From Cellulomonas fimi ATCC 484 (GTDB lineage: Bacteria; Actinomycetota; Actinomycetes; Actinomycetales; Cellulomonadaceae), in assembly GCF_000212695.1 (NCBI RefSeq), contig NC_015514.1:2914001-2978000 (forward strand): a stretch of DNA of 64,000 nucleotides. The letters run 5' to 3'. Under the pieces are notes generated by a model that ran no database searches, was not told the origin of the DNA, and saw only the letters and a program-made list of their open reading frames with translations. The translations under genes were made by a program, and so were the position numbers. How positions within the stretch are numbered: the first letter of the stretch is position 1; each line of letters starts with the position of its first letter. Shown here piece by piece: positions 9,397-30,349 of the stretch.

Positions 9397-9414
9397 ATAC
9401 CGGCCAGTCGGTAT
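9397..9414 (+). promoter_or_regulatory. Predicted TetR operator, site 1
   Basis: The inverted repeat ATACCG-GCCAGT-CGGTAT begins 7 bases downstream of a TACAGT -10 box (9384-9389), so it would cover the transcription start of the alcohol dehydrogenase operon. Three further copies of the same pattern occur at 15846, 24749 and 30332, each in front of a catabolic operon. Confidence 0.78.
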
Positions 9415-9482
9415 TAAGGCGGTCCGGGGTCGCGCGCGGCGCCGGAACCCGTCCACACGTCACCGTCGACGCGGAGGTCGCC

Positions 9483-10601
9483 GTGCAGATCGTCGGGGCC
9501 GTGCTCGAGCGCACGGGCAGCCCGCCGCCGTACGCGTCCTCGCGGCCGTTCACCGTCGGCCCGCTCGAGCTCGACGAGCCGCACGCCGGCGAGCTGCTGG
9601 TGCGCGTCGAGGCGGCGGGCGTGTGCCACTCCGACCTGTCCGTCGTCGACGGCAACCGCGTCCGGCCCACGCCGATGCTCCTCGGGCACGAGGCCGCGGG
9701 CGTCGTCGAGTCGGTCGGCCCGGAGGTCCACGACGTGCGCCCCGGCGACCGCGTCGTCCTCACCTTCCTCCCCCGCTGCGGGGCGTGCCCCGAGTGCGCC
9801 ACCGACGGGCGGCTCCCCTGCCGGGTCGGCAGCGCCGCCAACGCGGCCGGCGCCCTCGTCGGCGGCGGGACGCGCCTGCACCGCGACGGCCGGGACGTGC
9901 ACCACCACCTCGGCGTCTCGGCGTTCGCCACGCACGCCGTCGTGAGCCGGACCTCCGTGGTGCGCGTGGACGACGACGTGCCGCCCGAGGTCGCGGCGCT
10001 GCTCGGGTGCGCGGTGCTGACCGGGGGCGGCGCCGTCGTCAACGCGGGCCGGCCCGCGCCCGACGACACCGTCGCGGTCGTCGGGCTCGGCGGCGTCGGC
10101 ATGGCGGCGCTGCTCGTCGCCGTCGCGCTCGGGCACGAGGTCGTCGGGGTCGACACCCGGCCCGACAAGCTCGCGACGGCCCGCCGGCTGGGCGCCGCGG
10201 TCGCGGTCGAGCCCGACGACCTGGATGCTGCGGGTGTGCGCGCGCCCGTCGTCGTGGAGGCAGCGGGGTCGGCCCGCGCGTTCGAGACAGCGCTCGCGAC
10301 GACCGCACCCGGCGGCACGACGGTGACCGTGGGACTGCCGGCGCCGGGTGCGCGAGCGCAGGTCAGCCCGCTGACGCTCACGGCCGAGGCGCGCACCGTC
10401 GTCGGCTCCTACCTCGGCTCGGCCGTCCCCGAGCGCGACGTGCCCCGGTACGTCGACCTGTGGCGCGCCGGACGGCTCCCCCTGGAGGCCCTCGTCTCCT
10501 CCCGCGTCACCCTCACCGACATCGACCTCGCCATGGACCGGCTCGCCGCCGGCGGCGAGCTGCGTCAGCTCATCACGCCCGACACCCGGACCCGCCCGTG
10601 A
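9483..10601 (+). CDS. Zinc-dependent alcohol dehydrogenase (MDR family)
   Basis: This 372-aa enzyme is predicted to oxidise an alcohol with NAD(P)+. Catalytic zinc ligands are Cys48 and His69-Glu70. The structural zinc site Cys99/102/105/113 is complete, and a Rossmann motif Gly-Leu-Gly-Gly-Val-Gly follows near residue 198. The start is GTG 9483 with a perfect GGAGG 5 bases upstream, and the long open frame before it is non-coding. It begins an operon with a short-chain dehydrogenase and a MaoC hydratase behind the TetR operator at 9397-9414. The context suggests oxidation of a hydroxyl-bearing intermediate before or during beta-oxidation. Confidence 0.9.
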   Translation: MQIVGAVLERTGSPPPYASSRPFTVGPLELDEPHAGELLVRVEAAGVCHSDLSVVDGNRVRPTPMLLGHEAAGVVESVGPEVHDVRPGDRVVLTFLPRCGACPECATDGRLPCRVGSAANAAGALVGGGTRLHRDGRDVHHHLGVSAFATHAVVSRTSVVRVDDDVPPEVAALLGCAVLTGGGAVVNAGRPAPDDTVAVVGLGGVGMAALLVAVALGHEVVGVDTRPDKLATARRLGAAVAVEPDDLDAAGVRAPVVVEAAGSARAFETALATTAPGGTTVTVGLPAPGARAQVSPLTLTAEARTVVGSYLGSAVPERDVPRYVDLWRAGRLPLEALVSSRVTLTDIDLAMDRLAAGGELRQLITPDTRTRP

Positions 10602-10620
10602 CCGACGAGAGGCCCACTCG

Positions 10621-11376
10621 ATGACCACCACTCGCACCGCGATCGTCACCGGCGCCGCCCGCGGCATCGGCGCCGCCACGGCCCTGCGCCTCGCGCGCGA
10701 CGGCCTGCGCGTCGCCGTGCTCGACCTGTCCGAGGAGGCAGCCGACGTGACCGCGCAGGCCGTGCGCGACGCGGGCGGCGAGGCCGTCGCCGTCGGGGCC
10801 GACGTCGCCGACGAGGACGCCGTCGCGGCCGCCGTCGCGCGCGTCGCCGACACCCTCGGGGCACCGACCGTGCTCGTGAACAACGCCGGGATCCTGCGGG
10901 ACAACCTGCTGTTCCGGATGAGCACGAGCGACTTCGACGACGTCCTGCGCGTGCACCTGCGCGGCGCGTTCCTCATGAGCCGCGCGGTGCAGGCCTACCA
11001 GGTCGAGGCGCGGTGGGGCCGCGTCGTCAACCTGTCCAGCACCTCCGCGCTCGGGAACCGGGGGCAGGCGAACTACGCCGCCGCGAAGGCCGGCATGCAG
11101 GGGTTCACCAAGACCCTCGCGATCGAGCTCGGGCAGTTCGGCGTCACCGTGAACGCCGTCGCGCCGGGGTTCATCCAGACCGAGATGACGCGCGCGGTCG
11201 CCGACCGGGTCGGCGTGCCGTTCGAGGAGCTCCTCGCGCACGAGGCGACGCAGGTGCCCGTGCGGCGCGTCGGGCAGCCCGAGGACATCGCCGCCGCGGT
11301 CGCGTTCTTCGTGTCCGAGGAGGCGTCGTTCGTCTCCGGCCAGGTGCTCTACGTCGCGGGAGGGCCGCGCGCATGA
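10621..11376 (+). CDS. Short-chain dehydrogenase, FabG/3-hydroxyacyl-CoA type
   Basis: This is a 251-aa SDR oxidoreductase. The cofactor motif Thr-Gly-Ala-Ala-Arg-Gly-Ile-Gly lies at the N-terminus and Asn-Asn-Ala-Gly near residue 89. The catalytic Ser-(x)12-Tyr-x-x-x-Lys is visible as Ser-Ser-Thr-Ser ... Asn-Tyr-Ala-Ala-Ala-Lys. Overall it resembles 3-oxoacyl-ACP/CoA reductases, and in this operon oxidation of 3-hydroxyacyl-CoA is the likelier direction. The start is ATG 10621 with GAGAGG upstream. It follows the alcohol dehydrogenase by 19 bases and overlaps the MaoC gene by ATGA, so the three are co-transcribed. Confidence 0.9.
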   Translation: MTTTRTAIVTGAARGIGAATALRLARDGLRVAVLDLSEEAADVTAQAVRDAGGEAVAVGADVADEDAVAAAVARVADTLGAPTVLVNNAGILRDNLLFRMSTSDFDDVLRVHLRGAFLMSRAVQAYQVEARWGRVVNLSSTSALGNRGQANYAAAKAGMQGFTKTLAIELGQFGVTVNAVAPGFIQTEMTRAVADRVGVPFEELLAHEATQVPVRRVGQPEDIAAAVAFFVSEEASFVSGQVLYVAGGPRA

Positions 11377-12029: not shown

Positions 12030-13253
12030 TCAGGCGACCCGTTCGACGACCATCGCCATGCCCTGGCCGCCGCCCACGCACATCGTCTCCAGGCCGTAGC
12101 GGCCGCCGGTGGCGGCCAGGCCGTGCAGGAGCGTCGTGGTGATCCGGGCGCCCGTCATGCCGAACGGGTGGCCGACCGCGATCGCGCCGCCGTGCACGTT
12201 GAGCCGCTCGACGTCGACCCCGATCGCCTTGGCCGACGGCAGCACCTGCGCGGCGAACGCCTCGTTGAGCTCGACGAGGTCCACCTGGTCGATCGTCAGA
12301 CCGGCCAGCTCGAGTGCGCGACGGCTCGCCTCGACGGGGCCGAGGCCCATGATCTCGGGCGACAGCGCGCTCACGCCGGTCGAGACGATCCGGCCGAGCG
12401 GCGTGAGCCCCAGCGCCTCCACGATGCGCTCGCTCACGACGACGAGCGCCGCGGCGCCGTCGTTGAGCGGGCAGCAGTTGCCCGCCGTCACGGTGCCGTC
12501 GGGCCGGAAGACGGGCTGCAGGGCCGCGAGCGCCTCGACCGTGACGCCCGCGCGCGGCCCGTCGTCCGCTGCGACGACCGTGCCGTCGGGCAGCGTGACG
12601 GGCGTGATGTCGTCGGCCCAGAAGCCGGACGCGACCGCCGCCTCGGCGCGGTTCTGCGAGAGCGCCGCGTACTCGTCCTGCTCCCACCGGCCGGTGCCGG
12701 TGAGCTGGGCGACGTTCTCGGCGGTCTGCCCCATCGCGACGTAGACGTCGGGCAGCGCGCCGTCCTCGCGCGGGTCGTGCCACGTGGTGCCGCCCGCGGC
12801 GGCCCGGGCGGTGCGGGCGACGGCGTCGGCGAACCGCGGGTTGGTGACGTCCTCGCCGGGGATGTGGTCGGACGAGCCGCGCACCGACCGGCTGACGGAC
12901 TCGACCCCCGCGGAGACGAACACGTCGCCCTCCCCCGCGCGGATCGCGTGGAACGCCATGCGGGTCGTCTGCAGCGACGACGCGCAGTACCGGTTCACGG
13001 TCGTGCCGGGCGTCTCGTCGAGGCCCGACAGGACCGCGACGACGCGCGCCATGTTCATCCCCTGCTCGCCGCCGGGCATGCCGCAGCCGAGGAGCAGGTC
13101 CTCGACGCGGCCCGGGTCGAGCGTGGGGACCTGCGCGAGCGCGGCGCGCACGAGCTGGGCGGCGAGGTCGTCCGCGCGGACGTCCCTGAGCGACCCCTTG
13201 AAGGCACGCCCGATGGGTGAGCGGGCGGCGGCGACGACGAATGCCTCGGGCAC
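12030..13253 (-). CDS. Acetyl-CoA C-acyltransferase (thiolase)
   Basis: This 407-aa degradative thiolase cleaves 3-ketoacyl-CoA to acetyl-CoA (or propionyl-CoA) and a shortened acyl-CoA. The nucleophile is Cys90 in Asn-Arg-Tyr-Cys-Ala-Ser-Ser. The C-terminal motifs Asn-Val-His-Gly-Gly-Ala-Ile-Ala-Val-Gly-His-Pro and Cys-Val-Gly-Gly-Gly-Gln-Gly are intact. The start is GTG 13253 with AGGAGG 6 bases upstream. It lies 100 bases downstream of an acyl-CoA dehydrogenase on the same strand, probably in one operon controlled from the palindrome at 14584-14607. Length is normal for FadA-like enzymes. Confidence 0.94.
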   Translation of the reverse strand: MPEAFVVAAARSPIGRAFKGSLRDVRADDLAAQLVRAALAQVPTLDPGRVEDLLLGCGMPGGEQGMNMARVVAVLSGLDETPGTTVNRYCASSLQTTRMAFHAIRAGEGDVFVSAGVESVSRSVRGSSDHIPGEDVTNPRFADAVARTARAAAGGTTWHDPREDGALPDVYVAMGQTAENVAQLTGTGRWEQDEYAALSQNRAEAAVASGFWADDITPVTLPDGTVVAADDGPRAGVTVEALAALQPVFRPDGTVTAGNCCPLNDGAAALVVVSERIVEALGLTPLGRIVSTGVSALSPEIMGLGPVEASRRALELAGLTIDQVDLVELNEAFAAQVLPSAKAIGVDVERLNVHGGAIAVGHPFGMTGARITTTLLHGLAATGGRYGLETMCVGGGQGMAMVVERVA

Positions 13254-13353: not shown

Positions 13354-14550
13354 TCACACGAACGCGGAGACGCCCGTGATGGCGCGGCCGACGATGAGGT
13401 TGTTCATGTCGCGCGTGCCCTCGAACGAGTAGACCGCCTCGGCGTCGGCGAAGAACTTGGCGACGCCGTGGTCGAGCTGGATGCCGTTGCCGCCGAGCAG
13501 CTCGCGGCACCACGCGACGGTCTCGCGCATGCGGGTCGTCGCGTAGCCCTTGGCGAGCGCGGCGTGCTCGTCGCCGAGGCGGCCGGCGTCCTGCATCCGC
13601 GACGCCTGCAGGCACAGGGCGATCGACGCGGTGATGTTCCCCAGGCACTGCGCGAGCCGGTCCTGCACGAGCTGGAACGACGCGAGCGGCCGCCCGAACT
13701 GCTCGCGCTCGGCGACGTACCGCACGGTCGCCTCGTACGCGCCGACCGCGACGCCGACGGCCTGCCACGCGACCTCGGCGCGCGTGAGCCGCAGCACGAC
13801 GGCGACCTCGCGGAAGGAGTGGATGTTCGGCAGCCGGTCGGCCTCGTCGACCTCGACGCCGTCGAGCGTGATGTCGGCGTTCTGGACGATGCGCAGCGCC
13901 TGCTTGCGCTCGATCTTGGTCGTCGTGAACCCGGGCGTGCCGCGGCGGACGAGGAAGCCCTTGACCTGACCGTCGGCGGTGTCGCGCGCCCAGATCACGA
14001 CGACGTCCGCGAAGGTCGCGTTGCCGATCCACCGCTTGGCGCCGTTGAGGACCCACGTGTCGCCGCGGCGCTCGGCCGTGGTGCGCAGGCCCTTGGAGGC
14101 GTCGGAGCCGGACAACGGCTCGGTCAGCCCGAACGCGCCGATCAGCTCGCCGCGCCCCATGGGCGGCAGCCACTGCGCGCGCTGCTCGGGCGACCCGCCG
14201 ATGGCGATCGAGCTCATCGACAGCCCGCTCTGCACGCCGACGAACGTCGCGGTCGACGGGTCGACGCGGCCGAGCTCGAGCGCGGCCCACCCGCGCCACA
14301 CCGCGGAGTTCTCGAACCGCATCGTCTCGGGCCACATCGCGCCGAACATCCCGCAGTCGGCGAGCCCGGGGATGATCTGGTGCGGGAACTCCGCGCGGTC
14401 CCAGTAGTCGAGCGCGAGGGGCCGGACCTCGCGCTCCATGAAGTCGCGCAGGCGCGCCGAGGCGTCGTGCTCGACGGGCGTGAGGGCCTCCTGGAAGCCG
14501 TAGAAGTCGGCGGCGAGCGGGGCGTGGACGGGGGTGTCGGTGGTGGTCAT
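13354..14550 (-). CDS. Acyl-CoA dehydrogenase, glutaryl-CoA dehydrogenase-like
   Basis: This is a 398-aa FAD enzyme. The acyl-CoA dehydrogenase signature Ala-Phe-Gly-Leu-Thr-Glu-Pro-Leu-Ser-Gly-Ser-Asp is present. The C-terminal Tyr-Ser-Phe-Glu-Gly-Thr-Arg-Asp contains the catalytic Glu in the position used by glutaryl-CoA dehydrogenases. It also has the FAD-binding Arg-Glu-Gln-Phe-Gly-Arg-Pro and Leu-Leu-Gly-Gly-Asn-Gly. The start is ATG 14550 with GAGGAG 8 bases upstream. It diverges from a TetR gene, with a 24-bp palindrome between them. Decarboxylating activity is possible but cannot be decided from the motif alone. Confidence 0.92.
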   Translation of the reverse strand: MTTTDTPVHAPLAADFYGFQEALTPVEHDASARLRDFMEREVRPLALDYWDRAEFPHQIIPGLADCGMFGAMWPETMRFENSAVWRGWAALELGRVDPSTATFVGVQSGLSMSSIAIGGSPEQRAQWLPPMGRGELIGAFGLTEPLSGSDASKGLRTTAERRGDTWVLNGAKRWIGNATFADVVVIWARDTADGQVKGFLVRRGTPGFTTTKIERKQALRIVQNADITLDGVEVDEADRLPNIHSFREVAVVLRLTRAEVAWQAVGVAVGAYEATVRYVAEREQFGRPLASFQLVQDRLAQCLGNITASIALCLQASRMQDAGRLGDEHAALAKGYATTRMRETVAWCRELLGGNGIQLDHGVAKFFADAEAVYSFEGTRDMNNLIVGRAITGVSAFV

Positions 14551-14583: not shown

Positions 14584-14607
14584 TGCAACATCTTCGAGAA
14601 TGTTGCA
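14584..14607. promoter_or_regulatory. 24-bp palindromic operator
   Basis: The arms TGCAACAT (14584-14591) and ATGTTGCA (14600-14607) form a perfect 8-bp inverted repeat around CTTCGAGA. It lies between the divergent acyl-CoA dehydrogenase and TetR genes, 20 bases upstream of the TetR -10 box TAGAGT (14628-14633). It is unlike the ATACCG operators nearby, so it probably binds the adjacent TetR protein. Confidence 0.78.
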
Positions 14608-14640: not shown

Positions 14641-15390
14641 ATGGCCGCGAGCACCCCACCCCCGGACAGCACCTCGGCGACGGCCCACCGGCCGCGCCCC
14701 GGGTCGCTCGCGGCGGTGGGCACGACCGCCGCGCCGTCCTGGCTGTCCGAGCGCCTGGAGGACGGCGAGCACCCCGACGCCGTCCGCGCCTTCCGGCTCG
14801 CCCGCGAGCAGTTCATCGCCGGGGAGCGCGTCGACATGGGCCGCCTGGCCACCCGGCTCGGCATCGACCGCACGTCGCTGTTCCGCTGGGTCGGCAACCG
14901 CGACGCGCTGCTGTCCGAGGTGCTGTGGTCGCTCGCCGTCCCCACGTTGCAGCAGGCCGAGGACGCCGCGGCCGGGCGCGCGGGCGCCGACCGCGTGGCC
15001 GCGGTGCTCACGAGCTTCGCGTCCGACCTGATCCGGGCGCCCTACTTCCGCGCGTTCCTGCGCCGCGAGCCCGCCCGCGCGCTGCGGCTGCTCACGACCA
15101 ACGAGAGCGAGATCCACCGCCGCTACGTCGCGACGGTGCGCGTGCTGGTCCTGGCCGAGCTCGGCGAGCACCCGTTCGGCCGGTCGATCGACGCGGGCGA
15201 CCTCGCGTTCGTCCTGGTCCGGGTGAGCGAGTCGTTCACGTACGCCGACCTCATCTCCGGCGACACCCCCAGCGCGGCGCGCGCCCGGGCGGCGTTCGAC
15301 GTCGTGCTGCGCCCCGAGCCGGCCGCACCGCCCGCCGACGCGCCCCCGCCGGCGGCCACCGACGCCACCCCGCCGCAGGAGCCCGCATGA
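14641..15390 (+). CDS. TetR regulator, QsdR-like
   Basis: This 249-aa transcription factor has a helix-turn-helix around residues 60-90 (Met-Gly-Arg-Leu-Ala-Thr-Arg-Leu-Gly-Ile-Asp-Arg-Thr-Ser-Leu-Phe-Arg-Trp-Val-Gly). The preceding Gly-Glu-His-Pro-Asp-Ala-Val-Arg-Ala and the Arg-Trp-Val-Gly-Asn-Arg-Asp turn recall QsdR-type regulators, known from quorum-signal lactone degradation in Rhodococcus. That assignment is from memory of the family, not a search. The N-terminus and the Pro/Ala-rich tail are low complexity. ATG 14641 follows TAGAGT with a 7-base gap, so the mRNA is probably leaderless. It likely controls the divergent operon through the 24-bp palindrome. Confidence 0.82.
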   Translation: MAASTPPPDSTSATAHRPRPGSLAAVGTTAAPSWLSERLEDGEHPDAVRAFRLAREQFIAGERVDMGRLATRLGIDRTSLFRWVGNRDALLSEVLWSLAVPTLQQAEDAAAGRAGADRVAAVLTSFASDLIRAPYFRAFLRREPARALRLLTTNESEIHRRYVATVRVLVLAELGEHPFGRSIDAGDLAFVLVRVSESFTYADLISGDTPSAARARAAFDVVLRPEPAAPPADAPPPAATDATPPQEPA

Positions 15391-15794
15391 CGTACCCGCA
15401 CCGCGCCGCGTTCCCGACCCGATGGAACGACAACGACCAGTACGGCCACATGAACAACGCCGTCTACTACGAGGCGATGGACACGACGATCAACGTCTGG
15501 CTCCTGCGCGCCGGGCTCGACCCGCTCGCGGGCGGCTGGATCGCGGTGTGCGCGGCGTCGTCGTGCGAGTTCCGGGAGTCGGCCTCGTTCCCCGAGCCGC
15601 TGGAGATCGGCCTGCGCGCCGGGCGCGTCGGCACGACGAGCGTCACCTGGGAGCTGGGCATCCTGCGACCCGAGGCGAAGCAGCCGCTCGCGACGGGCCG
15701 GTTCGTGCACGTCTTCGTCGACCGCGCGTCGCGGCGGCCCGTGCCGGTGCCCGACGAGGTGCGTGCGGCGATCTCCCGCGACCTCGCGTCCTGA
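15387..15794 (+). CDS. Acyl-CoA thioesterase, hot-dog (4HBT) fold
   Basis: This is a 135-aa thioesterase of the 4-hydroxybenzoyl-CoA thioesterase/YbgC group. The active-site motif Arg-Trp-Asn-Asp-Asn-Asp-Gln-Tyr-Gly-His-Met-Asn-Asn-Ala-Val-Tyr-Tyr-Glu is complete with the catalytic Asp. It would hydrolyse an acyl-CoA, perhaps to relieve CoA trapping. The ATG overlaps the TetR stop (ATGA), so regulator and thioesterase are translated together. The TetR operator at 15846 follows shortly after its end. Confidence 0.9.
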   Translation: MTYPHRAAFPTRWNDNDQYGHMNNAVYYEAMDTTINVWLLRAGLDPLAGGWIAVCAASSCEFRESASFPEPLEIGLRAGRVGTTSVTWELGILRPEAKQPLATGRFVHVFVDRASRRPVPVPDEVRAAISRDLAS

Positions 15795-15845: not shown

Positions 15846-15863
15846 ATACCGACCGCGCGGTAT
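15846..15863 (+). promoter_or_regulatory. Predicted TetR operator, site 2
   Basis: ATACCG-ACCGCG-CGGTAT is a perfect 6-6-6 inverted repeat, extendable by two bases on each side (GCATACCG/CGGTATGC). It lies 56 bases upstream of the TTG start of the APH-family gene and shares its pattern with the sites at 9397, 24749 and 30332. Confidence 0.78.
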
Positions 15864-15918: not shown

Positions 15919-16980
15919 TTGGCACCCCAGACGCTGCCCGGGCTCGACGTCGCCCGCCTCGACGGCTGGCTGCGCACGCACCGCCCCGACCTCGCGGGCG
16001 ACGGACCGCTGGCCGCGACGCTCCTGACGGGCGGCCGGTCCAACCTCACGTACCGGGTCGACGGCGCGCGCGTCCCGCTCGTCCTGCGCCGCCCTCCCCT
16101 GCACCACGTCCAGGCCACCGCGCACGACATGGCCCGCGAGCACCGCGTCCTGACCGCGCTCGGCCCGACCCCCGTCCCGGTCCCGGGCACGCACGTGCTC
16201 GTCGACGACACCGACGGCGCCGCGGGCACGGGCACCGCGTTCTTCCTCATGGACCGCGTCGACGGCGAGGCGCTCGGCACCCGCGCGCACAACGCCCACC
16301 GCACCCCGGCCGCGCTGCGCACCGTGAGCCTCACGCTCGCCGCGCTCCTCGCCGAGCTCCACCTCGTCGACGCCGACGCGGCCGGCCTGGGCGACCTCGG
16401 CCGCGCCGACGGCTTCCTCGACCGGCAGGTGCACCGCTGGGGCGTCCAGCTCGACGGCTCGCGCTCGCGCGCCGTGCCCGCGCTCGACGACCTCCAGGAC
16501 CGGCTCCGCGAACGCGTCCCGACGACGTGGCGCGCCGCGGTCGTGCACGGTGACTACCGGCTCGACAACGTGCTCGTCGCGGGCACCGACGAGCCGCGCG
16601 TCACCGCGGTGCTCGACTGGGAGATGGCGACGCTCGGCGACGCGGCGGTCGACCTCGGCATGCTCGGCCTCTACTGGGAGCTCGGACGCGTCGCGGGCGA
16701 CGACCCGACCGTGAGCGCCGTCGACCCGGGCGCGGGCTACCCGCCGTTCGACGAGCTCGTCGACGCCTACGCGCAGCGGCTCGGCGCCCCGCCGCCGGAC
16801 CTCGGCTGGTACCGGGCGTTCGCGGCGTACAAGCTCGCGGTGATCCTCGAGGGCGTGCACTTCCGCTACCGCGCGGGCGGCACCGTCGGCGACGGGTTCG
16901 AGCGCATCGGCGGCCTCGTCGACCCGCTCGCGCGCGAGGGCCTCGCGCTGCTCGCCGCGCGCACGACCGGGCGGGGGTGA
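15919..16980 (+). CDS. APH-family phosphotransferase (ACAD10/11 kinase-domain or LvaA-like)
   Basis: This 353-aa protein has a protein-kinase-like aminoglycoside phosphotransferase fold. The catalytic loop is His210-Gly-Asp-Tyr-Arg-Leu-Asp-Asn217 and the metal site Leu-Asp233-Trp-Glu. The phosphate-binding turn Gly-Gly-Arg-Ser-Asn-Leu-Thr-Tyr is at 38-45. The TTG start at 15919 has GGAGG 6 bases upstream, and an in-frame ATG lies inside the operator and is unlikely. The gene precedes an acyl-CoA dehydrogenase by 4 bases. In animals the same two domains are fused (ACAD10/11), and in Pseudomonas levulinate catabolism LvaA phosphorylates 4-hydroxyacyl-CoA. An antibiotic-resistance role is therefore unlikely. 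Confidence 0.85.
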   Translation: MAPQTLPGLDVARLDGWLRTHRPDLAGDGPLAATLLTGGRSNLTYRVDGARVPLVLRRPPLHHVQATAHDMAREHRVLTALGPTPVPVPGTHVLVDDTDGAAGTGTAFFLMDRVDGEALGTRAHNAHRTPAALRTVSLTLAALLAELHLVDADAAGLGDLGRADGFLDRQVHRWGVQLDGSRSRAVPALDDLQDRLRERVPTTWRAAVVHGDYRLDNVLVAGTDEPRVTAVLDWEMATLGDAAVDLGMLGLYWELGRVAGDDPTVSAVDPGAGYPPFDELVDAYAQRLGAPPPDLGWYRAFAAYKLAVILEGVHFRYRAGGTVGDGFERIGGLVDPLAREGLALLAARTTGRG

Positions 16981-22363: not shown

Positions 22364-23232
22364 GCGCTCCTCGCCTCCACCCCGGCGACGAGCCCCTGCG
22401 GACGCACGAGGAGCACGAGGACGAGCATCGCGAGCACCGCGACGGGAGTCGCCCCGGCACCGACGTACCCCGTGACGAGGCTCATGAGCACCCCTACCCC
22501 GAGTCCCGCGACGAGCGCCCCGCCCGGCGAGTCGAGCCCGCCGACGACGGCGACGGTGAACGCGAGGACGAACAGCACGTCGGTCGCGTGCGGGTTGAGC
22601 CCGAGCTCGGTGGGCAGCAGGAGCAGCGCGGCGAGCGCCGCGACCGCCGACGCGAGCGCCCACGCGACGGTGCGCATGCGGGCGACCCGCACGCCGAGCA
22701 GCCGGGACACCTCGGGCGCGAACGCCGACGCGCGCAGCTGCAGCCCGAGCGTCGTCCGGGTGAACAGGAGCCGCAGCCCCAGCATGAGGCCGAGCGCGAC
22801 GACGACGACGAGCAGGTCGTACGGCGACCCGAGCGGCACGCCGGCGACCGACCACGGCGCGTCGCTCACGGGCGGCGCCACGGGCACGTACTGCGGCCCG
22901 GCGAGGATCCCCAGCACGGACTGCAGCACCATGACGAGCCCGATCGCGAGGATCACGCCGCCCAGCGGGGTCGTGGCGTACCGCATCACACCCCGCTCGA
23001 CGACGCCGCCGAGCACCCCACCGGCGACGACGCCCGCGAGCGCACCCCACCACCAGCCGCCCGTCGCCGTGGCGACGGCGACGGCCACGTAGGCGGCGAC
23101 CACCGCCATCGCGCCCGCTGCGAAGTTGACGATCCGCGCGGCCCGCCAGATGAGCACGAGCGACAGCGCGAACAGGGCCAGGACGGTGCCGCGGGCGACA
23201 CCGGTGCCCACGAGGAAGACGAAGCGGTCCAC
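22360..23232 (-). CDS. ABC permease, LivH-like
   Basis: This is a 290-aa permease with about eight hydrophobic segments. The hallmark Val-Asn-Phe-Ala-Ala-Gly-Ala-Met-Ala near residue 35 is typical of LivH-type subunits. So are Arg-Ala-Ser-Ala-Phe-Ala-Pro-Glu in the coupling loop and Gly-Gly-Leu-Asp-Ser-Pro-Gly-Gly-Ala near the C-terminus. The start is GTG 23232, immediately after the LivF-like stop. It forms the heterodimeric channel with the LivM-like subunit. Confidence 0.92.
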   Translation of the reverse strand: MDRFVFLVGTGVARGTVLALFALSLVLIWRAARIVNFAAGAMAVVAAYVAVAVATATGGWWWGALAGVVAGGVLGGVVERGVMRYATTPLGGVILAIGLVMVLQSVLGILAGPQYVPVAPPVSDAPWSVAGVPLGSPYDLLVVVVALGLMLGLRLLFTRTTLGLQLRASAFAPEVSRLLGVRVARMRTVAWALASAVAALAALLLLPTELGLNPHATDVLFVLAFTVAVVGGLDSPGGALVAGLGVGVLMSLVTGYVGAGATPVAVLAMLVLVLLVRPQGLVAGVEARSA

Positions 23233-23949
23233 TCAGAACCCCAGGTAGGCGTGGCGGAGGGCCTCGTCGTGCGCGAGGTCCGGGGCGGGTCGGGCCGCGA
23301 CGACGCGCCCGAGGTCGAGGACGACGCCGCGGTCGGCGACGGACAGGGCCGCGGCGACGTTCTGCTCCGCGAGCAGCACCGCGAGCCCGTCGTCGCACCG
23401 CGCGCGCAGCAGGCCCATGATCTGCGCGACGACCTGCGGGGCGAGCCCGAGCGACGGCTCGTCTAGCAGCAGCACCCGCGGTCGGGCGACGAGCGCGCGT
23501 CCGAGCGCGAGCATCTGGCGCTCGCCGCCCGAGAGCTGGTGGCCGAGTGCCGACCGGCGCCGGTCGAGCGACGGCAGCAGCGCGTACACGTCCTCGACGG
23601 CCGCGCGCCGGGCGGCGGCGCTGCGGTGCGCCCACAGCGCACCGAGCAGCAGGTTCTCGTCGGTGCTGAGCTCGACGACCACGCCGCGCCCCTCGGGCAC
23701 GTGGGCGATCCCCCGGCGGGCCCGGTCCTCGACCGCGACCGACGCGAGGTCGGCGCCGTCGAGCCGCACGCCGCCGGCGCGCAGGGGCAGGAGCCCCGAC
23801 GCGGCACGCAGCAGCGTCGTCTTGCCCGCGCCGTTGGCCCCGACGAGCGCGACGAGGGTCCCGGGCGGGACGTCGAGCGTGACGTCGTGCAGGACGGGCG
23901 CCCCGCCGTACCCGGCGGTGACGCCGTGCAGGGCGAGCCCGGCCGTCAT
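23233..23949 (-). CDS. ABC ATPase, LivF-like
   Basis: This 238-aa ATP-binding subunit has Walker A Gly-Ala-Asn-Gly-Ala-Gly-Lys-Thr, the signature Leu-Ser-Gly-Gly-Glu-Arg-Gln, Walker B Val-Leu-Leu-Leu-Asp-Glu-Pro-Ser-Leu-Gly-Leu-Ala-Pro and a downstream Glu-Gln-Asn. The Pro-Glu-Gly-Arg-Gly loop and the short length are diagnostic of LivF rather than LivG. The ATG overlaps the LivG-like stop by four bases. Confidence 0.93.
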   Translation of the reverse strand: MTAGLALHGVTAGYGGAPVLHDVTLDVPPGTLVALVGANGAGKTTLLRAASGLLPLRAGGVRLDGADLASVAVEDRARRGIAHVPEGRGVVVELSTDENLLLGALWAHRSAAARRAAVEDVYALLPSLDRRRSALGHQLSGGERQMLALGRALVARPRVLLLDEPSLGLAPQVVAQIMGLLRARCDDGLAVLLAEQNVAAALSVADRGVVLDLGRVVAARPAPDLAHDEALRHAYLGF

Positions 23950-24698
23950 CGCGCGCCTCCGGCCGCCGCCACGCCGAGGTAGGCCTCCTCGACGCGGGGG
24001 TCCCGCTGCACGTCCTGCGGGGCACCGACCGCGATGACGTGGCCGAAGTCGAGCACGACCACCCGGTCGCTCACGCCCATGACGAAGTCGACGTGGTGCT
24101 CGACGAGCAGCACCGCGGTGCCGCGCGCGGCGACGTCCCGCACGACCCGGCCCAACGCGGCGATGTCGTCGTGGCCGAGCCCGCCTGCGGGCTCGTCGAG
24201 CAGCAGCAGCCGGGGCCGGGCGACGAGCGCGCGGGCGAGCGCGACCCGGGCGCGCTCGGCGTACGGCAGCGCCCCGACCGGCCGTGCCGCGTGCTCCCCG
24301 AGGCCGAGGACGTCGAGCTCCTTGCGCGCACGCTCGTGCGCCCGGGGCTCCCCGGCGGGGACGCCCACGACGACGTTCTCGAGGACGGTCAGCCCGGGGA
24401 ACACGCCCAGTCCTTGCAGCGTGCGGGCGACGCCACGGCGGGTGAGGCCTGCCGTGGGGCCGAGCGGTCGCCCGTCGAGCGTGACCGTGCCGCGCGCCGG
24501 GCGGACGAGCCCGCAGACCGCGTTGAACACGGTGGTCTTGCCCGCGCCGTTGGGACCGATGAGCGCGACCACCTCGCCGTCGTCGACGTGGAGGTCGACG
24601 TCCTCGACGGCCGTCAGGCCGCCGAAGCGGACGGTGAGGCCGCGCACGGCGAGGCCCGTGTCGGCCCGCGCCGTCGGCGCGGTCGTGGCTCGGCTCAC
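23946..24698 (-). CDS. ABC ATPase, LivG-like
   Basis: This second ATP-binding subunit of the importer is 250 aa from GTG 24698. Walker A is Gly-Pro-Asn-Gly-Ala-Gly-Lys-Thr and Walker B Leu-Leu-Leu-Leu-Asp-Glu-Pro-Ala-Gly-Gly-Leu. The family's Arg-Thr-Leu-Gln motif is present after a Thr-Arg-Arg-Gly turn. The usual Leu-Ser-Gly-Gly signature is replaced by Leu-Pro-Tyr-Ala-Glu, as often in LivG. GTG 24698 has GGAGG only four bases ahead. GTG 24716 (256 aa) is an alternative with no clear ribosome site. First gene of the five-gene operon, 50 bases downstream of the TetR operator. Confidence 0.9.
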   Translation of the reverse strand: MSRATTAPTARADTGLAVRGLTVRFGGLTAVEDVDLHVDDGEVVALIGPNGAGKTTVFNAVCGLVRPARGTVTLDGRPLGPTAGLTRRGVARTLQGLGVFPGLTVLENVVVGVPAGEPRAHERARKELDVLGLGEHAARPVGALPYAERARVALARALVARPRLLLLDEPAGGLGHDDIAALGRVVRDVAARGTAVLLVEHHVDFVMGVSDRVVVLDFGHVIAVGAPQDVQRDPRVEEAYLGVAAAGGAR

Positions 24699-24748
24699 TG
24701 GCCCTCCGTCGTGCACCTCGTCGTGACGATGGGGCGACGGTACAACAG

Positions 24749-24766
24749 AAACCGACTAGCCGGTAT
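24749..24766 (-). promoter_or_regulatory. Predicted TetR operator, site 3
   Basis: Read towards the ABC importer operon it is ATACCG-GCTAGT-CGGTTT, matching the sites at 9397, 15846 and 30332. A TACCGT hexamer (24742-24737 on the minus strand) just downstream could be the -10 box, with the operator between -10 and -35. Confidence 0.77.
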
Positions 24767-26488: not shown

Positions 26489-27081
26489 CGGGCGTCCCGG
26501 GCGTCGTCGGCGGGCGGCTCGTCGGCACCCGCACGCGTGCCGACGCCCTGCGGGGCGCCGGCTCCCACCGTCGCACCGGCTCCCGCGGGACCGGCGGCCG
26601 CCACCTCGGGACCCGGACGCGCGGCGGCCCCCGGGGGCATGTCGGCGCCGGTCAGCGCGGGCAGCGCGTCGGCCGCGGCGAGGCGCGCCCCCGAGTCGGC
26701 GAGCGTCTCGCGCAGGAAGGCCCGCGCGACGACGAGCAGCTCGGCGACGAGCGGGCGCCCGAGCCGGTACACGACCGCGTTGCCCGAGCGCGTGGAGGTC
26801 ACGACCCCCGCCCGCTTGAGCACGGCCAGGTGCTGCGAGAGGACCGACGCCTCGACCCCCGTCGCGGCGAGGAGCTCGCTCACGGGAGCGGCGTGCTCGG
26901 GTGCGGCGCTGAGCACCTCGAGCGCCTGGATGCGCGTCGGGTGGGCGAGGCACCGGAACAGCTCGGCCTTGATCGCGTACAGCGGCGCGGTCGCGGAGCT
27001 GGGGGTCGCGGGGCCGGTGGTGGCGGGGCCGGGGGTGGCGCCGGGGGTGGCAGGGCTGGGGGTGGCGGTACTGCCGGGCAC
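26485..27081 (-). CDS. ArsR-family regulator
   Basis: This is a 198-aa winged-helix repressor. The core (residues ~35-110) has Phe-Arg-Cys-Leu-Ala-His-Pro-Thr-Arg-Ile-Gln-Ala-Leu-Glu-Val-Leu and recognition helix Glu-Ala-Ser-Val-Leu-Ser-Gln-His-Leu-Ala-Val-Leu-Lys. It is flanked by a Pro/Thr/Ala-rich N-terminus of ~32 residues and a Pro/Ala/Gly-rich C-terminal tail of ~70 residues, both unusual for ArsR. A single Cys in the core argues against a classic Cys-pair metal site. GTG 27081 has AGGAGG four bases upstream, and that ribosome site overlaps the palindrome at 27091, so binding there would block translation and transcription alike. Confidence 0.9.
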   Translation of the reverse strand: MPGSTATPSPATPGATPGPATTGPATPSSATAPLYAIKAELFRCLAHPTRIQALEVLSAAPEHAAPVSELLAATGVEASVLSQHLAVLKRAGVVTSTRSGNAVVYRLGRPLVAELLVVARAFLRETLADSGARLAAADALPALTGADMPPGAAARPGPEVAAAGPAGAGATVGAGAPQGVGTRAGADEPPADDARDAR

Positions 27082-27160: not shown

Positions 27161-27892
27161 TCAGCCGTGCGGGACGCCCGCGATCATGCCGCCGTCGACC
27201 ACCAGCTCGGCGCCCGTGACGTACCGCGACTCGGCGGAGGCCAGGAACACCACGACACCCGCGACGTCCTGCGGCTCCGCGGGACGCCCGAGCGGGATGC
27301 GCTGCCGCGACACGTCGAGGTGCTCCGTCATGGGCGTCACGACGAACCCCGGGTGCACGGAGTTCACCCGGATGCCCGCGGGCCCGAGCTCCACCGCGAG
27401 CGACTTCGTCAGGCCGCGCACGCCGAACTTCGACGCCACGTACCCGTGCAGGCCCGCGTCGCCCCGCATCCCCTCGACCGACGAGATGTTGACGATCGAC
27501 CCGCGCCCCGCCGCGCGCATACCGGGCACGACGGCCCGCACCCCGAGGAAGGTCCCGGTCAGGTTGACCGCGAGGACCGCGTCCCACTGCTCCCGGCCGT
27601 ACCGTTCGATCCGTCCCGCGTTCGCGATCCCCGCGTTGTTGACGAGCACGTCGACCACCCCGAGCGCACCGGCGCGCTCGACCGCCGCCGACCACGACTC
27701 CTCGGACGTCACGTCGAGCGGCACCGCGACCGCCCGCTCCCCCAGCTCCGCGGCCAAGGCGTCGGCCTCGTCGGTCAGGACGTCCCCGACGACGACCGCC
27801 GCACCCGCCGCGTGCAGCGCGCGCACGTAGGCGGCCCCGAGCCCGCGCGCCCCGCCGCTCACGAGCGCCACGGCACCGTCGAGCCGCGTCAC
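27161..27892 (-). CDS. Short-chain dehydrogenase (SDR)
   Basis: This 243-aa NAD(P)-dependent oxidoreductase has Ser-Gly-Gly-Ala-Arg-Gly-Leu-Gly at the N-terminus and Asn-Asn-Ala-Gly near residue 85. The catalytic Ser ... Tyr-Val-Ala-Ser-Lys and the Pro-Gly motif His-Pro-Gly-Phe-Val are also present. It resembles 3-alpha/beta-hydroxysteroid and 3-hydroxyacyl dehydrogenase types. The start is GTG 27892, in the last of three tandem copies of an initiation region (27878-27964). It is the fourth gene of the SDR-TetR-oxidoreductase-SDR operon behind operator site 4. Confidence 0.9.
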   Translation of the reverse strand: MTRLDGAVALVSGGARGLGAAYVRALHAAGAAVVVGDVLTDEADALAAELGERAVAVPLDVTSEESWSAAVERAGALGVVDVLVNNAGIANAGRIERYGREQWDAVLAVNLTGTFLGVRAVVPGMRAAGRGSIVNISSVEGMRGDAGLHGYVASKFGVRGLTKSLAVELGPAGIRVNSVHPGFVVTPMTEHLDVSRQRIPLGRPAEPQDVAGVVVFLASAESRYVTGAELVVDGGMIAGVPHG

Positions 27893-27964
27893 CGCACAAG
27901 CCCTGGGTCGAGCCGCGTCACCGCGCACCCCCGGGGTCGAGCCGCGTCACCGCGCACCCCCGGC
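27878..27964. repeat. 29-bp tandem triplication of a start region
   Basis: Three 29-bp copies begin at 27878, 27907 and 27936. The last two are identical at 28 of 29 positions, and the first is diverged in its final third. Each contains, on the minus strand, GTGACGCGGCTCGAC, the beginning of the SDR gene. The copy at 27936 overlaps the upstream oxidoreductase stop as GTGA. Because 29 is not a multiple of three, the two outer copies open 10-codon frames that stop exactly on the next GTG. Confidence 0.92.
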
Positions 27965-28957
27965 GCCGTCCGCCCCCGACGCCACCGCGACGACCAGGCG
28001 GCCCGTCGTCCCCCCGGCGGCCAGCCGGGCCACGGCGTCGGGCGCGTCCGCGAAGGCGACGACGTCGCTCACCACGGGCCGCACGGCCCCCGAGGCGACG
28101 AGCGCGGACAGCGCCCGGTGCGCCGCCCGCACGAGGTCGGGGCGCCGGCGTGCGTACAGCGCCCAGTGCAGGCCGAGGACGCCGTAGTTCTTCACGAGCG
28201 CGTGCCCCGCGCGCACGTCCTGGATGGTGCCGGCCGCGAAGCCCACGACGACAACGCGCCCCTCGAACGCCACGCACCGTGTCGCGGCCTCGAACGCGTC
28301 ACCGCCGACGGGGTCGACGACCACGTCCGCCCCGGCACCGCCCGTGGCCTCGCGCACGGCGGCGACGACGTCCTGCGTCGAGCGGTCCACGACGACGTGC
28401 GCCCCGGCCGCGCGTGCGGCATCCGCCTTCGCGGCGGACCCGACGACGGCGACGACGCGCGCACCCGCTGCGACGGCGAGCTGCACGGTCGCGGTCCCCA
28501 CCCCGCCCGCCGCCGCGGTCACGAGGACCGTCTCCCCGGGCTGCAGCGACGCCCGCCGGTGCAGCGCGAACCACGCCGTCTGGTACGCGATGACGAAGCC
28601 CGCGGCCTCGGCGTCCGACAGCTCCGGCGGGCACGGCCACACCTCGTCGGCGCCGAGCAGCGCCTGCTCGGCGAGCACCCCGATCCGGGAGCCGACCACG
28701 CGGTCCCCGACGGCGACGTGCGCGACGCCGTCGCCGACCGCCCGGACCTCCCCGCACAGCTCGATGCCGGGCACGAACGGCAGCGGCGGACGCTCCTGGT
28801 ACTGCCCGCGAGCGAGGAGCACGTCCGGGAAGTTCACCGCCACGGCGCGCACGCCCACGAGGACCTGGCCGGGACCGGGGGCAGGCGGGTCGTCGACGTC
28901 GACGAGGTGCAGCACGTCGTCCGGCTCCCCGTACCGCACCACGTGCCACGCGCGCAC
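27947..28957 (-). CDS. Quinone oxidoreductase-like MDR dehydrogenase
   Basis: This is a 336-aa medium-chain reductase without zinc ligands, of the NADPH:quinone/enoyl reductase group. The N-terminal substrate domain contains Asn-Phe-Pro-Asp-Val-Leu-Leu-Ala-Arg-Gly, and the nucleotide motif Ala-Ala-Gly-Gly-Val-Gly lies near residue 150. The start is GTG 28957, two bases after the TetR stop. Family members reduce quinones, 2-alkenals or enoyl thioesters. In this operon an enoyl-CoA or unsaturated intermediate is a reasonable guess. Confidence 0.9.
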   Translation of the reverse strand: MRAWHVVRYGEPDDVLHLVDVDDPPAPGPGQVLVGVRAVAVNFPDVLLARGQYQERPPLPFVPGIELCGEVRAVGDGVAHVAVGDRVVGSRIGVLAEQALLGADEVWPCPPELSDAEAAGFVIAYQTAWFALHRRASLQPGETVLVTAAAGGVGTATVQLAVAAGARVVAVVGSAAKADAARAAGAHVVVDRSTQDVVAAVREATGGAGADVVVDPVGGDAFEAATRCVAFEGRVVVVGFAAGTIQDVRAGHALVKNYGVLGLHWALYARRRPDLVRAAHRALSALVASGAVRPVVSDVVAFADAPDAVARLAAGGTTGRLVVAVASGADGAGGAR

Positions 28958-28959
28958 GG

Positions 28960-29550
28960 TCAGCCCCGTCCCGGCCCGGCGGCGATGCCGGTGAGGAACA
29001 GCTCCGTGAGCTGCGCGGCGACCTGCTCCTTCGTCTCGGGCCCCTCGGGCGAGAACCACGTCGGAAGGTAGTGCACGTCGGCGAAGAAGTGCGCGACGAG
29101 CACGCCGCGCGGGACGTCGGTCCGGTACAGCCCCTCGGCCTGGCCCTTCTCGACGAGCCCGGCGAAGGTGTCGTGGTAGGCGCGGCGGCGGCGCGTGACC
29201 TCCTGCTGCCGCGGCTGCGACAGCATGTGCACGCTGCGGAAGAAGACCGTGCCCTCCAGCAGGAAGTCGATCGACGTCTCGATGACGTCGACGCACACCG
29301 CCCGCAGCGTCACCTCGATCGGCTCGCCCCGCGCGACGATCGCGTCGAGGTGGTCGGTCTGCAGCGTGAGCATCCGGTCGTAGATCGCGAAGAGCAGGTC
29401 GTCCTTCGACTGGAAGTAGTGGTACATGGCGCCCTTGGTGACGCCGGCCTGCTCGACCACCTGCTGCACGGAGGTGTTCGCGTACCCCTGGGCCGCGAAC
29501 AGCCCGAGTGCGGCCCGCAGGACGTCGTCGGCCACGCTGGTCTGCTTCAT
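28960..29550 (-). CDS. TetR-family regulator, candidate controller of the regulon
   Basis: This 196-aa repressor has a canonical TetR helix-turn-helix at residues ~10-55, including Thr-Ser-Val-Gln-Gln-Val-Val-Glu-Gln-Ala-Gly-Val-Thr-Lys-Gly-Ala-Met-Tyr-His-Tyr-Phe. This ending is typical of KstR2/FadR-like acyl-CoA-responsive members. The C-terminal ligand domain is helical. The start is ATG 29550 with AAGGA 9 bases upstream, after the SDR stop. Its operon begins with operator site 4, so it is probably autoregulated and is the best candidate to bind all four ATACCG-N6-CGGTwT sites. The inducer would be a CoA thioester of the pathway; this is inference. Confidence 0.9.
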   Translation of the reverse strand: MKQTSVADDVLRAALGLFAAQGYANTSVQQVVEQAGVTKGAMYHYFQSKDDLLFAIYDRMLTLQTDHLDAIVARGEPIEVTLRAVCVDVIETSIDFLLEGTVFFRSVHMLSQPRQQEVTRRRRAYHDTFAGLVEKGQAEGLYRTDVPRGVLVAHFFADVHYLPTWFSPEGPETKEQVAAQLTELFLTGIAAGPGRG

Positions 29551-29554
29551 GCGG

Positions 29555-30313
29555 TCATCCTTCCCCCCACGGGCGCACGCTGACGCCACCGTCGAGCACG
29601 AGCGTCTGCCCCGTCACCCAGGAGGCGTCGTCGGACAGCAGGAACGCGACCGGCCCGGCGACGTCCTCGGGCTCGCCGAGCCGGCCGAGCGGGTAGCGCG
29701 CGGCGACGGCCGCCTCGTCGTCCTCGTACAGGCGCCGCGCGAGCCGCGTCCGCACCACGGCGGGGGCGACGGCGTTGACGCGCACGCGCGGCGCGAGCTC
29801 GACCGCGAGCTGGGCCGTGAGGTTGAGCAGGGCAGCCTTGGACACGCCGTAGAACGCGATCCCGGGGCTCGCCGTGAGCCCTGCGGCCGACCCCGTGCAG
29901 ACGACGGACGCACCCTCGTGCGCACCCAGTCCCGCCGCCACGGCGTCGCGCGTCCACTCGAGCGCGGCGACGACGTTGACGGCGAGGATCTTGTCGACCG
30001 CAGCGCGCTCGATCTGCAGCGCGGGTCCGTAGACGGGGTTGATGCCGGCGTTGTTGACGAGGTGGTCGATCCGGCCGAACCGCTCGACGGTCGTGGCGAC
30101 CGCCTGCGCTCGGTGCCCGGCGTCGTCGACCTTGCCCGCGACGGCGGCGGCACGGTCCGCCCCGAGCGCCTCGACCGCCGCCGCGAGGGTGTCCGGGTCG
30201 CGGCCCGTCAGGACGACGCGCGCCCCCTCGTCGACGAGCCGCCGCGCGACGGCGAGACCGATCCCCCGGCTCGCGCCGGTGACCAGCGCGACGCGGTCCT
30301 CGAACCTGCGCAC
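29555..30313 (-). CDS. Short-chain dehydrogenase (SDR)
   Basis: This is a 252-aa SDR with Thr-Gly-Ala-Ser-Arg-Gly-Ile-Gly, Asn-Asn-Ala-Gly and the catalytic Ser-Ala-Ala-Gly ... Tyr-Gly-Val-Ser-Lys. Its start is GTG 30313 with GAGGGGG 6 bases upstream. It is the first gene of a four-gene operon and lies 18 bases downstream of operator site 4, so its leader is very short. By family it could oxidise a 3-hydroxyacyl-CoA or a secondary alcohol, the step that LvaD performs in levulinate catabolism. Confidence 0.9.
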   Translation of the reverse strand: MRRFEDRVALVTGASRGIGLAVARRLVDEGARVVLTGRDPDTLAAAVEALGADRAAAVAGKVDDAGHRAQAVATTVERFGRIDHLVNNAGINPVYGPALQIERAAVDKILAVNVVAALEWTRDAVAAGLGAHEGASVVCTGSAAGLTASPGIAFYGVSKAALLNLTAQLAVELAPRVRVNAVAPAVVRTRLARRLYEDDEAAVAARYPLGRLGEPEDVAGPVAFLLSDDASWVTGQTLVLDGGVSVRPWGEG

Positions 30314-30331
30314 CGGGACCCCCTCGTCTCG

Positions 30332-30349
30332 AAACCGACCGTTCGGTAT
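30332..30349 (-). promoter_or_regulatory. Predicted TetR operator, site 4
   Basis: Read towards the SDR-TetR operon it is ATACCG-AACGGT-CGGTTT. A TACCCT -10 box lies 5 bases upstream (30360-30355 on the minus strand), so the operator covers the start of transcription. This is the same geometry as site 1. Confidence 0.78.

Follow-up and report, generated by a model that had tools for sequence, protein, structure and literature searches.

The nearest described counterparts of the gene set treated here are enzymes which break down 4-hydroxy acids. ACAD10 and ACAD11 phosphorylate the 4-hydroxyl group of 4-hydroxyacyl-coenzyme A (CoA) and convert the product to 2-enoyl-CoA (PMC12440821 and PMC11342911, in their accessible parts), and bacterial relatives from two genera were described to perform the 4-hydroxyacyl reaction (PMC11342911). 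In mouse ACAD11 the second step is lost on changing R626, H634, R637 or the catalytic D753, with H634 and R637 located in a HCMR sequence (PMC12440821, PMC11342911), and the residues holding the 4-phosphate are established (PMC12440821). Here we report on a cluster of Cellulomonas fimi ATCC 484 that encodes a candidate pair of this type together with two TetR regulators, TetR_A and TetR_B. The cluster was analyzed in a window of 64,000 nucleotides, which is the whole stretch of DNA considered (contig NC_015514.1, positions 2,914,001 to 2,978,000), and four palindromes of the form ATACCG-N6-CGGTWT are distributed over about 21 kilobases of it. Very probably, the four palindromes constitute a TetR_B regulon for the breakdown of a 4-hydroxy acid or lactone, with TetR_A acting separately on a palindrome of its own.

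With the lva operon of Pseudomonas putida and with mammalian ACAD10/ACAD11, as far as the available descriptions go, the cluster shares a kinase, a dehydrogenase with HCMR, arginine and aspartate, a CoA ligase and reductases. It differs from lva of P. putida in the lack of LvaB/DUF6285, in an importer of the LIV type belonging to the ATP-binding cassette (ABC) transporters and in the proposed TetR repressor at four dispersed operators. In P. putida lva is controlled by LvaR, an activator.

Four operators and the assignment of TetR_B

A first-pass annotation, made from the sequence alone, had placed the four sites at 9397, 15846, 24749 and 30332 and had assigned each of them to a separate catabolic or transport operon. 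Positions and operons were both borne out, with sites 3 and 4 in minus-strand orientation; the operons are adh1-sdr1, aph-acad2-lig, livGFHM-pbp and sdr3-tetB-qor-sdr2 (Table 1). When the window was shuffled 100 times with its dinucleotides preserved, ATACCG-N6-CGGTWT was never matched. The genome is available as one complete contig of 4,266,344 bases, in which AWACCG-N6-CGGTWT occurs at four places, all of them within the window, and the reversed-pattern control gave 0 matches. The annotation's claim that there is no fifth site is therefore true genome-wide, and the whole-genome scan which it had proposed, run here as a pattern search, found the motif at these four places only and not spread at random positions. 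Allowing one mismatch added three further, scattered places in the genome. The spacing of 5–7 bases to -10-like boxes was confirmed as well, with TACAGT plus 7 bases at site 1 and TACCCT plus 5 bases at site 4. Judged by eye from the sequence, so that all -10 assignments are putative, the sites overlap or touch such boxes in each case (TACAGT at site 1, TATGCT at site 2, TACCCT at site 4 and a further box behind site 3). Such an arrangement would be expected if a repressor blocked the promoters. A literature search of open-access papers, covering part of the matching titles, gave no description of this regulon or operator.

TetR_B exceeds the Pfam cut-offs for PF00440 (66.5 bits, cut-off 24) and PF17932 (76.6 bits, cut-off 26.4), and its AlphaFold2 model has a pLDDT of 93.7. 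For the assignment of the regulator a sample of 150 genomes of the family was screened, 42 of which contain the motif, 32 a TetR_B orthologue (best E value of 1e-77 or lower; a weak match of 9.5e-21 in G123 was not counted) and 32 TetR_A. The motif is present in all 32 genomes with TetR_B, compared with 10 of the 118 without it, and these ten have one site each. At least two sites were found in 25 of the 32 TetR_B genomes and in none of the 118 others. The order-wide sample (396 genomes, with 35 shared between it and the family sample) agrees with this: at least two sites are carried by 20 of 21 genomes with TetR_B and by 22 of 375 without, or by 13/14 and 22/347, respectively, outside the own family, and at least four sites per genome occur in 10 of the 21 and in none of the 375. 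The TetR gene at 28960-29550, which the first-pass annotation had named as the natural candidate, is thus supported by co-occurrence, and on this comparative evidence the assignment of TetR_B to the four sites is strongly supported.

The same operons carry sites in the relatives. Among the 32 TetR_B genomes of the family 21 were mapped, this one included, with up to one mismatch allowed per site. A site heads the sdr3-tetB operon in 21/21 genomes, and an sdr3 orthologue of 63–78% identity adjoins tetB in all 20 other mapped genomes. Likewise, a site heads the livG operon in all 20 genomes having livG and precedes aph in all 15 where aph heads its own run; the other six are members of a single genus whose aph follows the importer or sdr2 within the same run. 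Before adh1 a site was detected in 11 of the 11 genomes with adh1 and upstream DNA (a count which leaves out adh1 of G124 and two side loci), and in three genomes with no adh1 match (G132, G137 and G149) it stands before sdr1. These observations support the earlier joining of the alcohol dehydrogenase, kinase/ACAD/ligase, ABC importer and short-chain dehydrogenase (SDR) operons. In the mapped genomes the 12 fixed positions hold a mean information of 1.76–1.97 bits and the flanks 0.36–0.47 bits. As the motif served to select the sites, the high core value is partly built in, and what is informative is how little the flanks hold.

A scan of named genomes, from which the best 80 of at least 582 confirmed stretches were kept as loci (L109–L133 include genomes also mapped under G handles, e.g., L127 = G064), extended the comparison beyond the family. 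Near relatives among these 80 loci belong to Microbacterium, Leifsonia, Nesterenkonia, Demequina and others, and most of them have the same sites. Streptomyces, Nocardiopsis, Nocardioides and others encode homologues with 44–51% identity, and those of Streptomyces adjoin the kinase/dehydrogenase pair with a near-identical site, the common form of which is ATGCCGACCRGTCGGTAT. Altogether, 45 of the 55 distant loci, many from Streptomyces and Nocardiopsis, contain the motif with no more than one mismatch. For aph, genes were counted if their 300 base pairs (bp) of upstream DNA lay within the locus and their match reached 100 bits, and 32 of the 41 distant genes testable in this way have a site within this distance, 25 of them centred 46–58 bases from the estimated start. 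The reversed-pattern control over the same 957 kilobases of distant loci gave one match. Among acad1 matches in the same upstream test three of eight had a site, and the Microbacterium acad1 matches adjoining such sites are an only about 40% identical gene, divergent from the TetR_B operon. Locus L130 of an Arthrobacter, with a TetR_B homologue of 59% identity, has 2-mismatch sites only, including one immediately upstream of TetR_B, and L112 has one 2-mismatch site about 760 bp upstream of its TetR_B match. On re-examination of L129, L134 and L135 no site was found near TetR_B at up to two mismatches.

The operators also resemble a box known from hormone receptors. The ARE-like consensus of AvaR1/AvaR2, AWWCCRBBHDDNMSGTWT (PMC5744401, available part), is loose, and operators 1, 2 and 3 fit it on one strand with 0 mismatches and operator 4 with one; the Streptomyces aph sites have two mismatches. 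The ScbR/ScbR2 motifs from chromatin immunoprecipitation sequencing look unlike these operators in the form accessible in PMC4595836. The best NCBIfam model for TetR_B is that of the ScbR family, NF041196, which is also matched by 19/19 relatives of set A1 (with the score given for one). As a member of this receptor family TetR_B was rejected, since it scores 61.9 bits against a cut-off of 150 and another TetR of the genome scores 77. The likeness to the ArpA/ScbR/AvaR receptors of Streptomyces (PMC5744401, PMC4150764 and PMC4595836, in part) lies in the fit of the operators to the loose ARE-like consensus and in the best NCBIfam model, and TetR_B differs from them in lying below the family cut-off and in having a catabolic regulon. 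The operator sequences suggest that it would work on a box similar to ARE. Compared with KstR2 and other acyl-CoA-responsive TetR regulators, TetR_B shows full-length similarity (about 59 bits to KstR2; 83 bits to the closer 3dcf, named as TetR/AcrR-family regulator) and likewise an acyl-CoA catabolic regulon. The operator of KstR2 is unlike ATACCG-N6-CGGTWT. An acyl-CoA as TetR_B ligand, which the first-pass annotation had considered, is plausible.

Two observations concern the motif outside the cluster. Genomes G451 and G498 (genus g30, order sample) have three motif sites and no TetR_B at E 1e-45, and another regulator may use the same motif word there. Furthermore, lone perfect sites are located far from the cluster in L082 near 5481 (G078, at an arabinofuranosidase gene) and in L088 near 4988 (G137, at a LuxR-type regulator gene); the genes tested beside these sites have no common function.

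The kinase/dehydrogenase pair and its substrate class

For acad2 the PDB matches are headed by ACAD11 chains with 424–434 bits and by 4hr3, a putative acyl-CoA dehydrogenase, with 410 bits, and the next listed chain scores 131 bits. The product of aph scores 191 bits with 9o56, an entry that bears the name aminoglycoside phosphotransferase, 164 bits with 3dxp and 136 bits with the kinase domain of ACAD11, 8v3v; the next match has 44 bits. In the alignment of acad2 to ACAD11, in which the chain numbering is one lower than in the paper, the HCMR sequence, the upstream arginine and the catalytic aspartate are all present. These residues are widely kept among the relatives, for which best matches covering more than 60% of the query were counted, some genomes appearing twice. 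The word R-x-GPGR-x-H-x-CMR was found in 39 of 39 acad2 proteins with at least 65% identity and in 42 of 46 below, and the word of the catalytic aspartate in 38 of the 39 close and 41 of the 46 distant proteins. None of 19 acad1 orthologues, used as control, contains HCMR; a low-identity acad1 group (29), mixed with acad2, was not used. Catalytic D and N of aph are kept in 29/29 close and 44/44 distant proteins.

We therefore read aph and acad2, from their sequences, as an ACAD10/ACAD11 system (LvaA/LvaC) that is split into two proteins and keeps the diagnostic residues. Because of this pair, the substrate is probably a 4-hydroxy acid, a gamma-lactone or a 4-keto acid, and the probable pathway can be named 4-hydroxyacyl-CoA catabolism. 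Ring opening of a gamma-lactone yields a 4-hydroxy acid. Within the family sample acad2 is present in 33 of 150 genomes, namely all 32 with TetR_B and in addition G044, which has neither TetR_B nor the motif. The distribution of acad2 and of the motif tracks that of TetR_B, and regulator, operator and pathway were therefore inherited together.

TetR_A and a candidate operator of its own

The cluster contains a second TetR gene at 14641-15390, absent from the first-pass annotation, whose product TetR_A has a PF18598 C-terminal domain (127 bits, cut-off 33.7). Its sole PDB match is 4za6 with 51.6 bits, many of its relatives carry the NCBI product name “QsdR family” and the closest named one, from C. 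biazotea, is 89% identical. Structure 4ZA6 is QsdR of Rhodococcus erythropolis, which according to the accessible parts of PMC6262395 releases DNA on addition of homoserine lactone and not with 3-oxo-C8-HSL, and whose Arg96 was docked to the lactone carbonyl; a response to gamma-caprolactone is described in PMC6476934 (in part). TetR_A resembles QsdR in its Pfam and NCBI family and in the position of Arg96, which is an arginine in 26/26 TetR_A proteins. It differs in that Glu90 is not kept, in that no qsdA-type (PTE) lactonase adjoins it (32 TetR_B genomes searched) and in its neighbors, which encode acyl-CoA dehydrogenase, thiolase and thioesterase. Since 4-hydroxyhexanoate has gamma-caprolactone as its lactone, the QsdR-family membership of TetR_A is an independent pointer to the same substrate class.

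The divergent gene pair acad1-thl and tetA-tes between sites 1 and 2 has no ATACCG-type site. Between acad1 and tetA lies the palindrome GCAACAT-N8-ATGTTGC, and its degenerate form GCAWCAT-N8-ATGWTGC occurs at one place in the genome, 14585-14606, even with up to one mismatch. At up to two mismatches it was found no more than 350 bp upstream of 22 of 26 TetR_A loci, corresponding to 22 of 25 genomes (L127 being G064, and the window genome being counted as a miss), a ratio that is not blind since the palindrome was spotted by eye and then tested partly on the same regions. Elsewhere in the same 2.19 megabases there are four matches, and the reversed control gave one. The palindrome is present in G092 and G123, which have no TetR_B, and absent from G031 at up to two mismatches; it is also present in G105, G006, G123, G077 and G128, all without an adjoining acad1 match, and absent from G014 and G054, which are without TetR_A. 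We thus consider 14585-14606 a candidate operator of TetR_A. The interspersed thiolase/acad1 operon would accordingly be a candidate for separate control, with its own regulator and operator.

An automatic palindrome count of the acad1-tetA regions put a different element, GATCG-N4-CGATC, first (8 of 14 regions), and not GCAACAT-N8-ATGTTGC. This element stands upstream of acad1 in ten mapped genomes, including the TetR_A-less G014 (L070 near 1414) and G054, and was not found in G105, G006, G031, G123, G077, G128 and G064, in all of which TetR_A is present and acad1 gave no match. It goes with acad1 and not with TetR_A and was rejected as TetR_A operator; candidate explanations are a leader, a ribosome-binding region or a site of another regulator. 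In the window only a partial copy exists near 14563 (12-mer CGATCGTCGTCG).

In G137 and G149 a 4-mismatch form of the TetR_A palindrome is located just upstream of livG and beside the TetR_B site (L095:7131-7152 and L102:19841-19862, respectively). Joint control of livG by TetR_A and TetR_B in this genus is possible, for which these positions are a hint.

Proposed mechanism, alternatives and meaning

On binding, repression, ligand and exact substrate we infer the following course of events. A TetR_B dimer would bind the four ATACCG-N6-CGGTWT palindromes at their promoter-like boxes and thereby silence four operons, its own among them. The importer livGFHM-pbp would take up a 4-hydroxy acid or a 4-keto or gamma-lactone relative, to which lig would attach CoA; aph would then phosphorylate the 4-hydroxyl of the acyl-CoA, and acad2 would remove the phosphate and give a 2-enoyl-CoA, which could enter beta-oxidation. 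Several dehydrogenases encoded in the four operons would be part of the same breakdown set. Release of TetR_B would most likely be caused by a compound of the pathway, that is a 4-hydroxyacyl-CoA, the acid or the lactone. Separately, TetR_A would control the divergent acad1-thl and tetA(-tes) via 14585-14606.

Several results weigh against this proposal. The motif also occurs in the absence of TetR_B, namely in the ten family genomes mentioned and in 80 of the 375 TetR_B-negative genomes of the order, of which six have three sites. Taken by itself it is therefore less than fully specific, and single sites are common background at order range. In the order sample G426 has a TetR_B homologue of 56% identity and no exact site, and 9 of the 41 testable distant aph genes are without a site in the 300 bp upstream. 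All genomes compared are related, and Fisher values consequently overstate the independence of the counts. On the enzymatic side, a search of the 32 TetR_B genomes for PTE lactonases (PF02126, QsdA-type), one lactonase family among others that were not searched, gave matches over the cut-off in seven genomes, each away from the cluster. Ten gap and side genes of the relatives belong to MFS, Fic, PAP2, DUF1361, RibD_C, TetR, arabinofuranosidase, LuxR-type or no clear family, and no lactonase is among them. Moreover, DUF6285, which we take to be LvaB of P. putida, is over the cut-off in none of 18 genomes searched. The name LvaB does not occur in the accessible parts of the ACAD10/11 papers PMC12440821 and PMC11342911.

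The background of single sites leads to the question of whether the motif is a general regulatory word of GC-rich genomes, clustered here by chance or within otherwise conserved DNA. Such an explanation draws on the TetR_B-negative genomes with a site just mentioned and is already contradicted by the uniqueness of the four sites in this genome and by the conservation of the 12 fixed positions next to little conserved flanks; since at least four sites per genome were seen in the order sample with TetR_B only, we regard it as the least probable of all. Hardly better placed is TetR_A as the protein which binds the four sites. Its gene belongs to the cluster, where it adjoins site 2, and it is nearly as closely associated with the motif (29 of 32 compared with 13 of 118 family genomes). 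The two regulators are separated by six genomes: G014, G037 and G054, which have TetR_B and no TetR_A, keep four, three and four sites, whereas no site occurs in G031, G092 and G123, where TetR_A is present and a TetR_B orthologue is absent. Few independent events stand behind this separation, since G014, G037 and G054 are congeneric and two of G031, G092 and G123 share another genus. TetR_A has, furthermore, a different candidate palindrome, which makes its binding to the four sites very improbable.

More weight, while still unlikely, is due to the view that TetR_B controls the four sites and the kinase/dehydrogenase pair acts on some other hydroxylated acyl-CoA, for example that of a steroid side chain, a terpenoid or an aromatic-chain acid. 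The LivK-type binding protein and the broad matches of the ligase leave the substrate unfixed, and the zinc-type and short-chain dehydrogenases point to an intermediate at the alcohol or ketone level. A 4-hydroxyacyl substrate is nevertheless favored by the residues holding the 4-phosphate in ACAD11, which are kept in acad2 (PMC12440821, in part), by the bacterial relatives from two genera that do the 4-hydroxyacyl reaction (PMC11342911, in part) and by the QsdR-family regulator linked to the cluster. Thus, the TetR_B regulon for 4-hydroxy acids or lactones is the reading we prefer.

A farther-reaching idea, which we rate slightly lower than the one on a different acyl-CoA and offer as speculation, is that TetR_B and the ArpA/ScbR/AvaR receptors share the ARE-type operator by ancestry and chemistry. 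The ancestor type would then be a repressor for 4-hydroxy acids or gamma-lactones, still encoded beside aph-acad2 in Streptomyces, and TetR_B would sense a gamma-lactone or a 4-hydroxyacyl compound. Cross-talk in Streptomyces might be possible, and the cluster could be a two-sensor island for the scavenging of gamma-lactones and possibly for signal quenching.

The features of the cluster are listed in Table 1. For two further genes of the window the other mapped clusters gave no match. One of them (24815-26500), between sdr2 and operator 3, encodes a sulfate permease of the SulP type, and the other (8450-9274), divergent from operator 1, an alpha/beta hydrolase, for which one match with 59% was found in the Streptomyces locus L184. 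Farther away, 40016-43891 encodes a fused 2-oxoglutarate dehydrogenase of 1291 residues with acyltransferase and E1 domains, presumably of the known actinobacterial KGD type.

Table 1. Operators and genes of the cluster in the window of C. fimi ATCC 484.
Feature	Position	Strand	Remarks
Operator 1, ATACCG-GCCAGT-CGGTAT	9397..9414	+	before adh1-sdr1, 7 bases behind TACAGT
adh1, zinc-type alcohol dehydrogenase	9483..10601	+	Pfam ADH_N, ADH_zinc_N; orthologues 71–81% identical in mapped relatives
sdr1, FabG-like short-chain dehydrogenase	10621..11376	+	Pfam PF13561; NCBIfam
thl, thiolase	12030..13253	-	Pfam Thiolase_N/C
acad1, acyl-CoA dehydrogenase, acyl-CoA oxidase 4/glutaryl-CoA dehydrogenase branch	13354..14511	-	5' end approximate
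Candidate second operator, GCAACAT-N8-ATGTTGC	14585..14606	.	between acad1 and TetR_A; proposed for TetR_A
TetR_A (tetA), QsdR-family regulator	14641..15390	+	PF18598 127 bits; start codon may be further in
tes, 4HBT-family thioesterase	15399..15794	+	Pfam 4HBT_2; 5' end approximate
Operator 2, ATACCG-ACCGCG-CGGTAT	15846..15863	+	before aph-acad2-lig; overlaps possible -10 TATGCT (by eye)
aph, candidate 4-hydroxyacyl-CoA kinase (LvaA/ACAD11 kinase-domain type)	15919..16980	+	PDB matches; catalytic D and N
acad2, candidate phospho-acyl-CoA dehydrogenase (LvaC/ACAD10/11 type)	16985..18235	+	ACAD11 434 bits; HCMR, upstream R, catalytic D
lig, AMP-forming acyl-CoA ligase	18232..19821	+	Pfam AMP-binding, searched in longer frame 17887-19821
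pbp, branched-chain-amino-acid-type substrate-binding protein	19933..21090	-	Pfam Peripla_BP_6; LivK-like PDB matches; 5' end (signal peptide) approximate
livM, second ABC permease	21206..22366	-	Pfam BPD_transp_2; frame conserved at 54–73%; 5' end approximate
livH, ABC permease	22360..23232	-	Pfam BPD_transp_2
livF, ABC ATPase	23233..23949	-	Pfam ABC_tran
livG, ABC ATPase, first gene behind operator 3	23946..24716	-	Pfam ABC_tran + BCA_ABC_TP_C
Operator 3, ATACCG-GCTAGT-CGGTTT	24749..24766	-	before livGFHM-pbp
sdr2, short-chain dehydrogenase	27161..27928	-	Pfam/NCBIfam family search
qor, zinc-binding quinone-reductase-like dehydrogenase	27947..28957	-	Pfam ADH_zinc_N, ADH_N
TetR_B (tetB), proposed repressor of four-operator regulon	28960..29550	-	Pfam TetR_N + TetR_C_24
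sdr3, short-chain dehydrogenase, heads TetR_B operon	29555..30313	-	Pfam adh_short_C2
Operator 4, ATACCG-AACGGT-CGGTTT	30332..30349	-	before sdr3-tetB-qor-sdr2, 5 bases behind TACCCT

New with respect to the first-pass annotation are the pair of the ACAD10/11 type, the QsdR-family TetR_A, its candidate operator and the likeness of the sites to the ARE box. Many Actinobacteria possess such a gene set, for which a regulator, an operator and a substrate class, all of them testable, can now be named. The cluster also lends itself as a bacterial model of the ACAD10/ACAD11 pathway, which was assigned in mammals by papers of 2024 and 2025. The two operators, being unique in this genome, could serve in biosensors. 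The presence of two regulators in one catabolic cluster, one of them of a lactone-sensing family, bears on the use of lactones by Actinobacteria, lactone signals included.

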